24,001 nt of DNA, taken from IMG/VR virus record IMGVR_UViG_3300003894_000027, positions 1 to 24,001 of that record; one strand, 5' to 3'. The notes beneath the pieces are model-generated. The model was not told where the DNA came from. It saw nothing but the letters and a program-made list of their open reading frames with translations, and searched no databases. Source of the stretch: a virus. Position numbers and translations under genes: made by a program. Positions 4,328 to 12,149 of the stretch are shown piece after piece (positions within the stretch are counted from its first letter, which is position 1; the number at the start of each line of letters is the position of its first letter).

Positions 4328-4825
4328 ATGCCTGATGAAAAAAGAGGAAATGTTGATATTAATGACTTTGATACGAGAGATAGAGAAGTTGTTCGATGGG
4401 TTGCTCAAATCCTCGGATATGACATCGAAATCTTCGGACAAAGAATTAGACAGCAAATTGAAGGACTTGCAAACGCTGGAGTTTCAGAACAATCAATTGC
4501 TCGGCTTCTTGATACAGACCTTAAATCCAATGGTAGAATCTTCGGAGAATATGCAAATTCCATTAAGCGAGGAGTTGTGGGAGGAATTATGCAAATATCA
4601 CGTCGAGAACTCAACGTGGGGAATGACGTAAACTATCGTTGGATTGTCGCTCAAGGCGTTAAGAATTGCCCAGACTGTTTAGCCCGAGCTGGTGAAGTTG
4701 ATACTTGGGGCGGATGGGTTAGTCGTGGGATGCCGTCAACTGGATGGTCTGTATGCAAACAACACTGCTACTGTCAAGTAGTGCCAGTGAATACTGATAT
4801 TGACGACATAATTGAGGTTAAATAA
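4328..4825 (+). CDS. Mu F-like minor head protein
   Basis: This 165-residue protein has a helical N-terminal half and a Cys-rich end. KNCPDCLARAGEVDTWGGW begins at about 112, and a WSVCKQHCYCQVVPV cluster at about 140-154 gives Cys114, Cys117, Cys143, Cys147 and Cys149 with His146. The W..(K)xCPxC...G....HPxCRC-like ending is the hallmark of Mu F-type minor head proteins, which bind portal and capsid and are often injected. The usual PxCRC is here QHCYCQV, so the His and Cys order is shifted. It is shorter than Mu gpF and may be the C-terminal domain alone. It ends 2 bases before a convergent gene with no visible terminator between. Confidence 0.75.
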   Translation: MPDEKRGNVDINDFDTRDREVVRWVAQILGYDIEIFGQRIRQQIEGLANAGVSEQSIARLLDTDLKSNGRIFGEYANSIKRGVVGGIMQISRRELNVGNDVNYRWIVAQGVKNCPDCLARAGEVDTWGGWVSRGMPSTGWSVCKQHCYCQVVPVNTDIDDIIEVK

Positions 4826-4827
4826 CT

Positions 4828-5007
4828 TTACGAGTTCGTTTTCTTATATCTTTTCTTATATGCTTCTATTGTTCTTGTAAATCTCCCTCTGTCGCCATCC
4901 CATCCAAACCAACCTTCTCCAAAATAGTGAATAAGGTCATACATTTTAGCCTTTTGCATATCACTATAATGATTTTCTGATTCCATATGCTGATTTCTAC
5001 CCTTCAT
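4828..5007 (-). CDS. 59-residue protein of unknown function, coupled to terminase small subunit
   Basis: Reading from ATG at 5007, this short frame overlaps the last 11 bases of the terminase small subunit gene. It has a good SD (AAGGG, 6 bases upstream) inside that gene, which suggests translational coupling. The protein starts MKGRNQHMES and contains YDLIHYFGEGWFGWDGDRG, an aromatic and Gly-rich core, before a basic helix (TIEAYKKRYKK). A second ATG eight codons in has no better SD. The aromatic motif seems familiar from small phage proteins, but no function is known to me. It may act with the small terminase. It converges with the Mu F-like gene with a 2-base gap. Confidence 0.72.
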   Translation of the reverse strand: MKGRNQHMESENHYSDMQKAKMYDLIHYFGEGWFGWDGDRGRFTRTIEAYKKRYKKTNS

Positions 5008-5662
5008 CGTTAGCCCTTTCTCTCTTTTCTAATTCCTCAATCCAAGCAACCCTTTCGCTTTTCTTATGTCTTCCAGTAGGTAACATCTCCAGCCCGACAG
5101 CATCGGCTCTTTTTCTCAAAGCATATCTTTCTCTCTTTTTCTCAAGGTATTTTGCCTTTTTCTGTTCCTTCCCAATAGACTTATTTAACTGTTTCTTCTC
5201 TTTTTTCTCCCTTGCTCTTGGAAAATCATTTGATTTATCTCTTTCAGGCATATCCATTACCTCAAAATCAGCCTCAATAGCATCAATCTTTTCTTTTTCT
5301 ATAATCTCGCCATTGGTATTGCTTGATTTCAGGAATTTTTCAAAAGGAGAATCTATAGTTACATTAACATTCTTGACCAGCTTCCCAGAATGCTCTAAAA
5401 CCAACCTTCCAGCCTGAACATTACCAGCACAAGCCTCCCTGACCATTGCATTCAGAACAGAAGGAAGTTCAGCCCCAAAGGAAACCATATATCTATCATA
5501 AATAGCCTCCACAAATAATGGGTCTTTCCTCCATTGCTTTATTGTATCCTGATGAACCCCAACAGCCTCGGCAACATCCACATACCTCATCTGCGGATTA
5601 CTTGCGAAACATTCAACAGCCATTAACTTCTTTGGATTCAGCTTTATTGGCTTATTACTCAT
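4997..5662 (-). CDS. terS: terminase small subunit (HTH DNA-binding)
   Basis: From the ATG at 5662 this is a 221-residue protein. The N-terminal helix-turn-helix (about 12-47) reads MRYVDVAEAVGVHQDTIKQW, the type found in phBC6A51-like terminase small subunits and related HTH proteins. A helical middle (about 50-95, VLNAMVREACAGNVQAGRLVLE) may drive oligomerisation. The C-terminal third is highly charged, with Lys/Arg/Glu coiled-coil features. An ATG at 5680 adds six residues, but it sits inside a repeat and lacks an SD. The ATG at 5662 has AAAAGGTG 5-6 bases upstream and is preferred. It would recognise the packaging site and activate TerL. It is on the opposite strand to terL and has its own promoter. 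Confidence 0.8.
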   Translation of the reverse strand: MSNKPIKLNPKKLMAVECFASNPQMRYVDVAEAVGVHQDTIKQWRKDPLFVEAIYDRYMVSFGAELPSVLNAMVREACAGNVQAGRLVLEHSGKLVKNVNVTIDSPFEKFLKSSNTNGEIIEKEKIDAIEADFEVMDMPERDKSNDFPRAREKKEKKQLNKSIGKEQKKAKYLEKKRERYALRKRADAVGLEMLPTGRHKKSERVAWIEELEKRERANDEG

Positions 5663-5676
5663 ATTATCACCTTTTC

Positions 5677-5720
5677 CCATTTGTTGATTTCAACATATGC
5701 ATTTGTCGATTTCGGATTAA
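5677..5720 (-). repeat. two 22-bp iteron copies in the terS leader (candidate operator)
   Basis: On the minus strand two 22-base units lie end to end (5720-5699, then 5698-5677). Both contain a CGAAATC- or TGAAATC-type core followed by CAAATG. The downstream unit matches the first iteron inside the replication initiator gene (11643-11664) at 20 of 22 positions by my alignment. The upstream unit keeps mainly the CGAAATC...CAAATGC half. They lie between the candidate -10 (5730-5735) and the terS SD, where a bound protein would block transcription or ribosome access. Confidence 0.75.
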
Positions 5721-5729
5721 AAACTCAAA

Positions 5730-5758
5730 ATAATATTTAATCTATTTAAAATACCCAA
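5730..5758 (-). promoter_or_regulatory. candidate terS promoter
   Basis: On the minus strand a TTGGGT -35 (5758-5753) and a TATTAT -10 (5735-5730) are separated by 17 bases. The -10 matches the sigma-70 consensus at 5 of 6 positions; the -35 is weaker. Transcription would start near 5723, at the edge of the iteron pair. Confidence 0.5.
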
Positions 5759-6074
5759 GAAATCCCTATCTCCAACAATATCTGCATTTAACTATAATAA
5801 AAAAGTGGTTGATGAATCGCATTTCCCTATAGTAATATTAAGTGTACTGTAGAAACCATTAATTAGATTTTTATAGAACGTTGGGTTATCAAAAACACCC
5901 AGTTTACCCTGTATCTTATTTGTTCCTATCAATACCACTACAGTTAAAATTAACGCCTTGTTAATATGTAATTTATAAATCAATGGACATTCTTTCAACC
6001 ATTTTTCCAAAATTCTGTTTTGGACATTCGTAATTTGACTTTTGAGAGGAGTGGGGATACACACCAGCATAGTC
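5759..6074. other. AT-rich stretch with no gene seen
   Basis: About 316 bases between the terS promoter and the leftward terminator hold no frame with a start, an SD and plausible protein sequence on either strand. A long minus-strand frame crosses it, but it runs through the terminator hairpin and overlaps the next gene, so I rejected it. A weak hairpin (TGGGT and ACCCA around 5883-5902) and one TTATAAAT (5973-5980) are present. It might hold a packaging site or upstream control sites for terS, but nothing shows this directly. Confidence 0.5.
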
Positions 6075-6118
6075 AAAAAAAACCGCCCCCCGCCCCCCTC
6101 GATAGGGGACGAAGGGCG
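6075..6118 (-). terminator. rho-independent terminator of the leftward two-gene unit
   Basis: On the minus strand a GC-rich hairpin has an outer CGCCC/GGGCG stem (118-114 with 88-84 of the 6000s) and an inner CCCCT-ATCG-style stem-loop (AGGGG at 6104-6108 with CCCCT at 6095-6099). Eight T residues follow directly (6082-6075). It lies 31 bases after the stop codon of the last leftward gene at 6150. Confidence 0.8.
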
Positions 6119-7183: not shown

Positions 7184-7227
7184 ATTGGAAAAAAATCCTA
7201 ATGGAAAAAATGGGGAAAAACTCCATC

Positions 7228-7292
7228 CTTATAAATGGGGCTTATAAAATTGACCCTTATAAATGGGGCTTATAAAATTGACCCTTATAAAT
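7228..7292 (+). repeat. 28-bp tandem repeat, two full copies plus a partial third
   Basis: Units at 7228-7255 and 7256-7283 are identical, and a third starts at 7284 but diverges after CTTATAAAT. Each unit contains CTTATAAAT-GGGG and CTTATAAAA-TTGACC, so CTTATAA appears five times at alternating 13- and 15-base spacing. The array ends 24 bases before the -35 of candidate promoter 2, a good place for an activator or repressor array. Confidence 0.85.
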
Positions 7293-7315
7293 TTTGAAAA
7301 TAAAAATAAAAAGAC

Positions 7316-9573: not shown

Positions 9574-9759
9574 ATGGATTTAGTTTTGAAAGAATTAAAG
9601 AATCAAGAACGTAGTGTCGCTTGGCTCGGAAGACAGCTTGGCGTATCAAAAACTGCCGTTTATAATTGGGCTTGGGGCAGGGTAATCCCTTCCAGAGCTT
9701 ATAAACTGGCAATGGCTTATGTTCTTGGCAAACCATATGATTGGCTATTTAACGAATAA
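9574..9759 (+). CDS. small HTH (XRE/Cro-type) DNA-binding regulator
   Basis: This 61-residue protein is almost entirely a helix-turn-helix domain. The HTH is around 13-37: SVAWLGRQLGVSKTAVYNW, with WGRVIPSRAYKLAMAYVLG as the following helices. This is a Cro-like layout with no extra domain. The SD GAGGAG lies about 11 bases upstream. It has its own candidate promoter and is flanked by two TTATAAAT sites, so it may regulate itself. Candidate targets are the palindromes at 7167-7183 and 6882-6903 or the TTATAAAT array. As the only small repressor-like gene seen, it could set early gene timing. Without an integrase, a lysogeny role is uncertain. Confidence 0.82.
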   Translation: MDLVLKELKNQERSVAWLGRQLGVSKTAVYNWAWGRVIPSRAYKLAMAYVLGKPYDWLFNE

Positions 9760-11203: not shown

Positions 11204-11347
11204 ATGCCGAATAAAAAAGCAAAGGACCGCAAAAGAAACCGCAGAAAACTCAATGCTTGGTTAAGTAAGAACGGCAGAACGGCGAATCAGGTCAGGAAAA
11301 AACGAGAAAAGGAGAAACAAAATGAACGCACACTCATTTCCAGTTGA
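11204..11347 (+). CDS. 47-residue highly basic phage protein
   Basis: The protein starts MPNKKAKDRKRNRRKLNAWL and continues SKNGRTANQVRKKREKEK, with over 40% Lys or Arg. The pattern (K/R-rich)..KLN.WL.K.GRTANQ is one I recall in small proteins of marine phages. It begins 8 bases after the folded element at 11096-11196 and overlaps the replication initiator start by 26 bases; the initiator SD lies within it. It likely binds DNA or RNA, but the role is unknown. The SD is weak. Confidence 0.65.
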   Translation: MPNKKAKDRKRNRRKLNAWLSKNGRTANQVRKKREKEKQNERTLISS

Positions 11348-12149
11348 ACTCGCTGAAAAATTAGGGCTTGAAGAATCTTTGATTTTACAGCATTTTTACT
11401 ACTGGCACAAAAAGAATGAAGGCAACAATAAAAACTTCATTGATGGTCATTATTGGACTTATAATTCAATAGATGGTTTTTCCTCTATCTTCACATATAT
11501 AAGCACTTACAAGATTCGTAATGTTTTAAAAAGGCTCGAGGAAGAAGGTTATGTAATCAAGGGAAATCACAATAAAAAGAAGTACGATAGAACCAGTTGG
11601 TATGCATTAACAGATAAGGCAATTTCTCTTTTCGATACTTCCATTTGTCGAAATCAACAAATGGATTTGTCGAAATCAGCAAATGCATCTGTCGAAATCA
11701 ACAAACCTATACCAGATAGTAATACATATAGTAATACAAATATAAATATATCATTTGATGAATTTTGGAATTTGTATGACAAAAAAGTTAATCGCTCAAA
11801 ATGTGAGAAAAAGTGGAATGCCTTGAGTGATAACGAAAGGGTTGCTGTGATGGGACATCTTCCGAGATATGTTCCATCCACTCCCGATAAACAGTTCAGA
11901 AAGAATCCTATTACCTACTTAAACAATAGAGGTTGGGAAGATGAGGTTCTAAAAACAACAGAACAGTTAATAAAAGAGGAGAATAAAATAGCAGAAGAAA
12001 AGAAAATGACAACTATCATTTGCCCCAATCATTCTGAATATGGATATAAAGTAGAGAAGGGAACTATTAAATTTTGCCCAGTATGTAGAAGAAAAATGGA
12101 AACAAGATTTGAATTAGACTACATGAAATCAATCGGATTAGCACAGTGA
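11322..12149 (+). CDS. replication initiator (lambda O / DnaD-like, with internal iterons)
   Basis: This 275-residue protein starts after a strong SD (AAAAGGAG). Residues 1-105 form a winged-helix domain of the type in phage replication proteins: LEESLILQHFYYWHKKNEGN, then DGHYWTYNSIDG, YKIRNVLKRLEEEGYVIKGN and DRTSWYALTD. A linker (about 106-143) is encoded by three iterons and an AT-rich stretch. A second domain (about 145-210) has FDEFWNLYDKKVNRSKCEKK and NPITYLNNRGWEDE, like partner-binding domains of lambda O or DnaT-like proteins. A C-terminal zinc-ribbon-like part has CPNH at 234-237 and CPVC at 252-255. It should bind the iterons and recruit the host helicase; no helicase gene is visible here. 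Confidence 0.85.
   Translation: MNAHSFPVELAEKLGLEESLILQHFYYWHKKNEGNNKNFIDGHYWTYNSIDGFSSIFTYISTYKIRNVLKRLEEEGYVIKGNHNKKKYDRTSWYALTDKAISLFDTSICRNQQMDLSKSANASVEINKPIPDSNTYSNTNINISFDEFWNLYDKKVNRSKCEKKWNALSDNERVAVMGHLPRYVPSTPDKQFRKNPITYLNNRGWEDEVLKTTEQLIKEENKIAEEKKMTTIICPNHSEYGYKVEKGTIKFCPVCRRKMETRFELDYMKSIGLAQ
11643..11760 (+). repeat. three 22-bp iterons plus AT-rich element: candidate replication origin
   Basis: Three direct repeats at 11643-11664, 11665-11686 and 11687-11708 share (C)GAAATCA(A/G)CAAA. Each is an imperfect palindrome (ATTTGTCGA...TC.ACAAAT). Since 22 is not a multiple of three, each repeat is read in a different frame, so selection must act on the DNA. From 11709 to about 11760 follows AT-rich DNA with a repeated ATAGTAATACA, as expected for a duplex-opening element. 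The layout matches the lambda origin inside gene O. Confidence 0.8.

Follow-up and report, generated by a model that had tools for sequence, protein, structure and literature searches.

The 5′ leader of the terminase small subunit gene (terS) in IMG/VR virus record IMGVR_UViG_3300003894_000027 carries about one and a half copies of the 22-bp unit that is repeated within the replication initiator gene (rep), and these are best read as a recently transposed ectopic copy of bona fide initiator sites. The window analysed here is the whole 24,001-base record, which is probably a genome fragment of an uncultivated phage. The genes and repeats on which the argument turns are as follows.

1000-2322, terminase large subunit
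4997-5665, minus strand, terS, terminase small subunit (PF13022, phrog_2538)
9574-9759, Cro-like protein
11322-12149, plus strand, rep, replication initiator of the O-like / phrog_11233 type, winged-helix-like domain at the N terminus
11642-11663, plus strand, in-gene iteron 1 (repeat finder and pattern scan)
11664-11685, plus strand, in-gene iteron 2 (repeat finder and pattern scan)
11686-11707, plus strand, in-gene iteron 3 (repeat finder and pattern scan)
11708-11760, plus strand, AT-rich stretch 3′ of the in-gene iterons, lambdoid-origin-like (from the sequence and the lambdoid layout, PMC7466680)

The rep product is homologous to O-like / DnaD-like phage replication initiators, with profile matches to phrog_11233 (2.3e-32), phrog_270 (1.1e-18) and phrog_678 (1.2e-8). 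Homologues were found by tblastn in 107 phage records, while a search of Rep against solved structures gave no significant match. A NinG-like protein is also encoded in the window, as is a phage exonuclease/phosphoesterase (12942-14165; phrog_284) whose N-terminal zinc-ribbon resembles that of InsA transposition proteins. Ahead of the early genes, tandem 28-bp repeats with TTGACCCTTATAAATGGGGCTTATAA occupy 7218-7305, and three related copies, spaced about 39 bp apart, are found at 9697-9912 of contig L108; these repeats are possibly early promoters or operators.

Within rep, three tandem 22-bp units follow the DNA-binding domain, and three such units occur at the identical place in every Rep relative that covers the region. 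The initiators of L097, L103 and L102 are only 36-41% identical, yet they carry the same motif at the same place. An array with a 22-bp period also follows the DNA-binding domain in the named phages Pseudoalteromonas vB_PspP-H6/1 and Bacteroides BF766P4, and a weaker one is present at that place in rep of elemoE and BcepMigl; the vB_PspP-H6/1 motif is closely related to that of the window, whereas BF766P4, elemoE and BcepMigl use other letters. Because 22 is not a multiple of three, the array is not a peptide repeat. The recurrence of this array after the DNA-binding domain, in relatives and named phages alike, makes it very probable that 11642-11707 comprises origin sites bound by the initiator. 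In more distant genomes (G014, G015, G018, G019, G023, G024, G026 and G027) the similarity to Rep is confined to its C-terminal part, approximately residues 130-218. It therefore appears that the DNA-binding domain is swapped together with the iteron type, as one module.

This layout resembles that of the lambdoid origin, with O-binding iterons situated midway through gene O and beside AT-rich DNA (PMC7466680). The window likewise has an O-like initiator, tandem near-palindromic iterons mid-gene after the DNA-binding part, and an AT-rich neighbour. Its units differ from the 19-bp lambdoid units in length (22 bp) and motif, and it adds a partial array in front of terS. The in-gene iterons of vB_PspP-H6/1 gp39 belong to the same motif family and have the same 22-bp period (80.7% over 83 bp), but, unlike the window, that phage has no copy outside rep in its whole 36.8-kb genome, including before terS.

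The leader of terS contains the following elements.

5678-5699, minus strand, complete leader unit CATATGTTGAAATCAACAAATG, a near-palindrome, with about 3 nt between its end and the terS Shine-Dalgarno sequence
5700-5721, minus strand, partial leader unit TTTAATCCGAAATCGACAAATG (leader alignment and local alignment)
5766-5874, minus strand, conserved non-coding terS leader block, present in all close relatives
6084-6118, minus strand, terminator-like hairpin upstream of terS

An earlier note on this DNA had described two tandem 22-bp units here that match the iterons, the best pair being identical at 20 of 22 positions. The best pair is indeed this close: the complete unit has 2 mismatches to in-gene iteron 1 and 1 to the IUPAC consensus. 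In the second unit the ATG-proximal half matches the iteron and the distal arm consists of ancestral leader sequence, which lowers the count from two units to about 1.5, although the match to the iterons stands. The terS leader thus holds one complete and one partial initiator-type site, and both sequence and spacing identify them as the same type of element as the origin iterons.

Several comparisons tie the two loci together. The longest inverted-repeat pair that the repeat finder reports in the window joins 5680-5714 to 11671-11705 (35 nt, 89%), and the second-longest joins 5677-5709 to 11632-11664 (33 nt, 82%). The leader pair is identical to in-gene iterons 2 and 3 at 31 of 35 positions, and to arrays of the family at 35 of 39 (G003) and 33 of 37 (G001). 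When the motif was scored across all 24,001 bases, allowing up to 3 mismatches to CATTTGTYGAAATCRACAAATG, only 5678-5699 and the three in-gene units were recovered, and a reversed control pattern had no match in the record. Aligning the 66-bp array with the leader yields a score of 25.0, as against a maximum of 15.0 (mean 12.3, sd 1.2) among 60 random Markov-1 genomes of 24 kb each with the same dinucleotide make-up.

The most likely start of terS is the ATG at 5665-5663, and a Shine-Dalgarno sequence, AAAAGG, lies between it and the sites, which places them within the terS 5′ leader. The hairpin at 6118-6084 suggests that terS has its own transcript. The position of its promoter is uncertain: TTGGGT-N17-TATTAT, the candidate to which the earlier note refers, is weak, falls below the scan threshold and lies in a stretch that is not conserved in relatives. 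The leader sites follow any upstream promoter and precede the Shine-Dalgarno sequence, so that bound initiator could block terS.

The conserved block at 5766-5874 is a candidate packaging or regulatory site. Part of it, 5834-5860, is conserved and non-coding in the window and in the leaders of L017, L018, L108, L020 and L021, approximately 170-200 nt upstream of terS. It includes an imperfect inverted repeat (CTACAGTACACT ... AGTTTACTATAG in L018), a candidate cos/pac site or operator.

Action of the initiator at the RNA level, which had also been suggested, finds no support. The predicted fold of the terS leader RNA is no better than that of shuffled sequences (z = 0.21), the leader has no match in Rfam, and the motif has the same orientation in the terS transcript as in that of rep. 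RNA-level control of terS was rejected on the first two of these results.

The history of the leader copy was traced in aligned leaders of close relatives, whose TerS proteins are 74-81% identical. The leaders of the window and of contig L017 are longer by 26-38 bp, inserted between the conserved body and the ribosome-binding site. In an IMG/VR census with a conserved leader word, which returned eight contigs of the group, the insertion occurs in L017 only; the other seven, representing about four lineages, keep the leader and lack the insertion. One further match, L224, was left out of the census as a single pattern match attributable to chance. Elsewhere, the unit scan found the motif only in rep genes, apart from an isolated match in L105, which has none of the window's genes and was likewise set aside as chance. 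The strict leader pair had no match in the genome contig collection, nor did the consensus pair in the viral contig collection.

L017 and the window are 88-98% identical over 5400-5874, reaching 93-98% in the shared tract, and 63-72% identical over the terS flank at 4800-5200, a difference by which recent exchange explains the presence of the insertion in L017. Judged from these sequences, the insertion probably arose once and was shared through recombination. L017 is too short to reach rep, and both loci together are therefore known in the window alone.

These comparisons bear directly on the proposal that the iterons connect replication with packaging. L020/G005, the only other genome of the group that holds both loci, has the in-gene iterons and lacks the leader sites, and the sites are likewise missing from the leaders of the other close relatives. 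Among 15 other genomes and contigs with this initiator domain, no copy of their own repeats outside rep scores above 15.0, compared with 25.0 here. Comparison of the terS leader with the rep region gave no match in G005 or in eight distant relatives, the best score being 12.0, and a conserved switch built on each phage's own repeats was rejected on this result. Relatives thus keep one site without the other, an outcome that the earlier note had named as refuting its proposal, and for the group as a whole a conserved replication-packaging circuit is unsupported because the link is absent from them. The same comparison does not count against a lineage-specific circuit. As the leader copy is a recent insertion seen in just two sequenced contigs, a switch from replication to packaging is no more than plausible. 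In the papers searched, origin iterons are nowhere described as controlling a terminase gene.

Distant terS leaders have features of their own. Those of L024, L029, L046 and similar contigs carry sigma-70-like promoters very near the start codon, and short operator-like direct repeats such as TTTCTACCAAA, AACTTTGA and AATGTCAA are present near them. When the distant genomes were checked whole, nothing in the rep region was similar to these terS-leader repeats.

We regard it as possible, and close to probable, that the ectopic sites are bound by Rep and impede transcription into terS. Some 26-38 bp inserted immediately ahead of the Shine-Dalgarno sequence would have placed one full and one half initiator site in the leader. 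Rep would bind these as it is predicted to bind the in-gene origin iterons; such binding is likely. Abundant Rep would then impede transcription through the leader, so that terS expression would be lowered or delayed. In lambda, a reporter whose transcription crosses ori was expressed less when O protein levels were raised (PMC3985674), and O binds single iterons in vitro (PMC7466680). Rep at the leader would probably be a mild roadblock. Counting against this reading are the restriction of the insertion to two contigs, the fact that relatives manage without it, the presence of only about 1.5 sites and the uncertain terS promoter.

A more doubtful possibility is that, in this lineage, the initiator doubles as a repressor of terS that delays packaging until initiator levels fall, and that this putative link is newly evolved and has been caught soon after it arose by insertion. 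Initiators with two classes of binding site have precedents. In iteron plasmids such as F, the initiator (RepE for F) represses its own gene through iteron-like operators. The site predicted here is similarly origin-repeat-like and in a promoter or leader region, but RepE targets its own gene, whereas Rep would act on a packaging gene at a distance of 6 kb. Satellite phage P4 has a second initiator-binding region, crr, besides ori, and crr is needed for replication. The window resembles P4 in having two separated clusters of predicted initiator-type repeats in one small genome, but its second cluster, unlike crr, is absent from relatives.

It is somewhat unlikely that the leader pair is instead a recently duplicated, functionless copy that has not yet decayed or been lost. 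Part of an iteron array could have reached the leader through template switching or a short recombination event at CGAAATC, and the junction in relatives, CCGAAA or CTAAATCG, is a plausible microhomology. Occurrence of the insertion in one lineage only is consistent with such an origin, as is the recent exchange that accounts for L017 carrying it. However, the sites are still near consensus and retain the exact 22-bp spacing, and an initiator bound beside a Shine-Dalgarno sequence is unlikely to be wholly silent.

A role in replication, whether as an auxiliary origin element or through titration of, or pairing with, initiator at the in-gene origin, appears improbable; crr of phage P4 would be the comparable case. 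The leader sites do adjoin AT-rich DNA at 5710-5745, in keeping with the general lambdoid origin layout (PMC7466680), but this AT-rich DNA is ancestral leader sequence, there are only about 1.5 units, and relatives replicate without them. The interference of extra origin copies with lambda replication (PMC4488673) is a loose parallel; the published effect came from plasmid-borne copies.

The near-palindromic form of the motif, common in operators, would also suit a different regulator, such as the Cro-like protein (9574-9759), or TerS itself, in which case the in-gene copies would be operators and not iterons. This is very unlikely: outside rep and the terS leader the window has no copy, not even at the Cro-like gene, and in unrelated phages the motif accompanies the N-terminal domain of Rep, whereas relatives of TerS lack it. 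Chance resemblance between two AT-rich regions has almost no probability, being already refuted by the pattern scan and the random-genome scores, and no terS leader of another genome scores above 16.5 against its own loci.

We therefore return to the reading of the leader pair as a recent ectopic copy of initiator sites. The 22-bp in-gene array from which it derives marks the probable origin in a wide range of phages that lack an annotated one. Should the leader sites be unbound, they still document the spread of origin iterons as short insertions. If they are bound, they would represent a new regulatory link created by placing origin repeats in front of a different gene, and would illustrate how the timing of replication can influence packaging.
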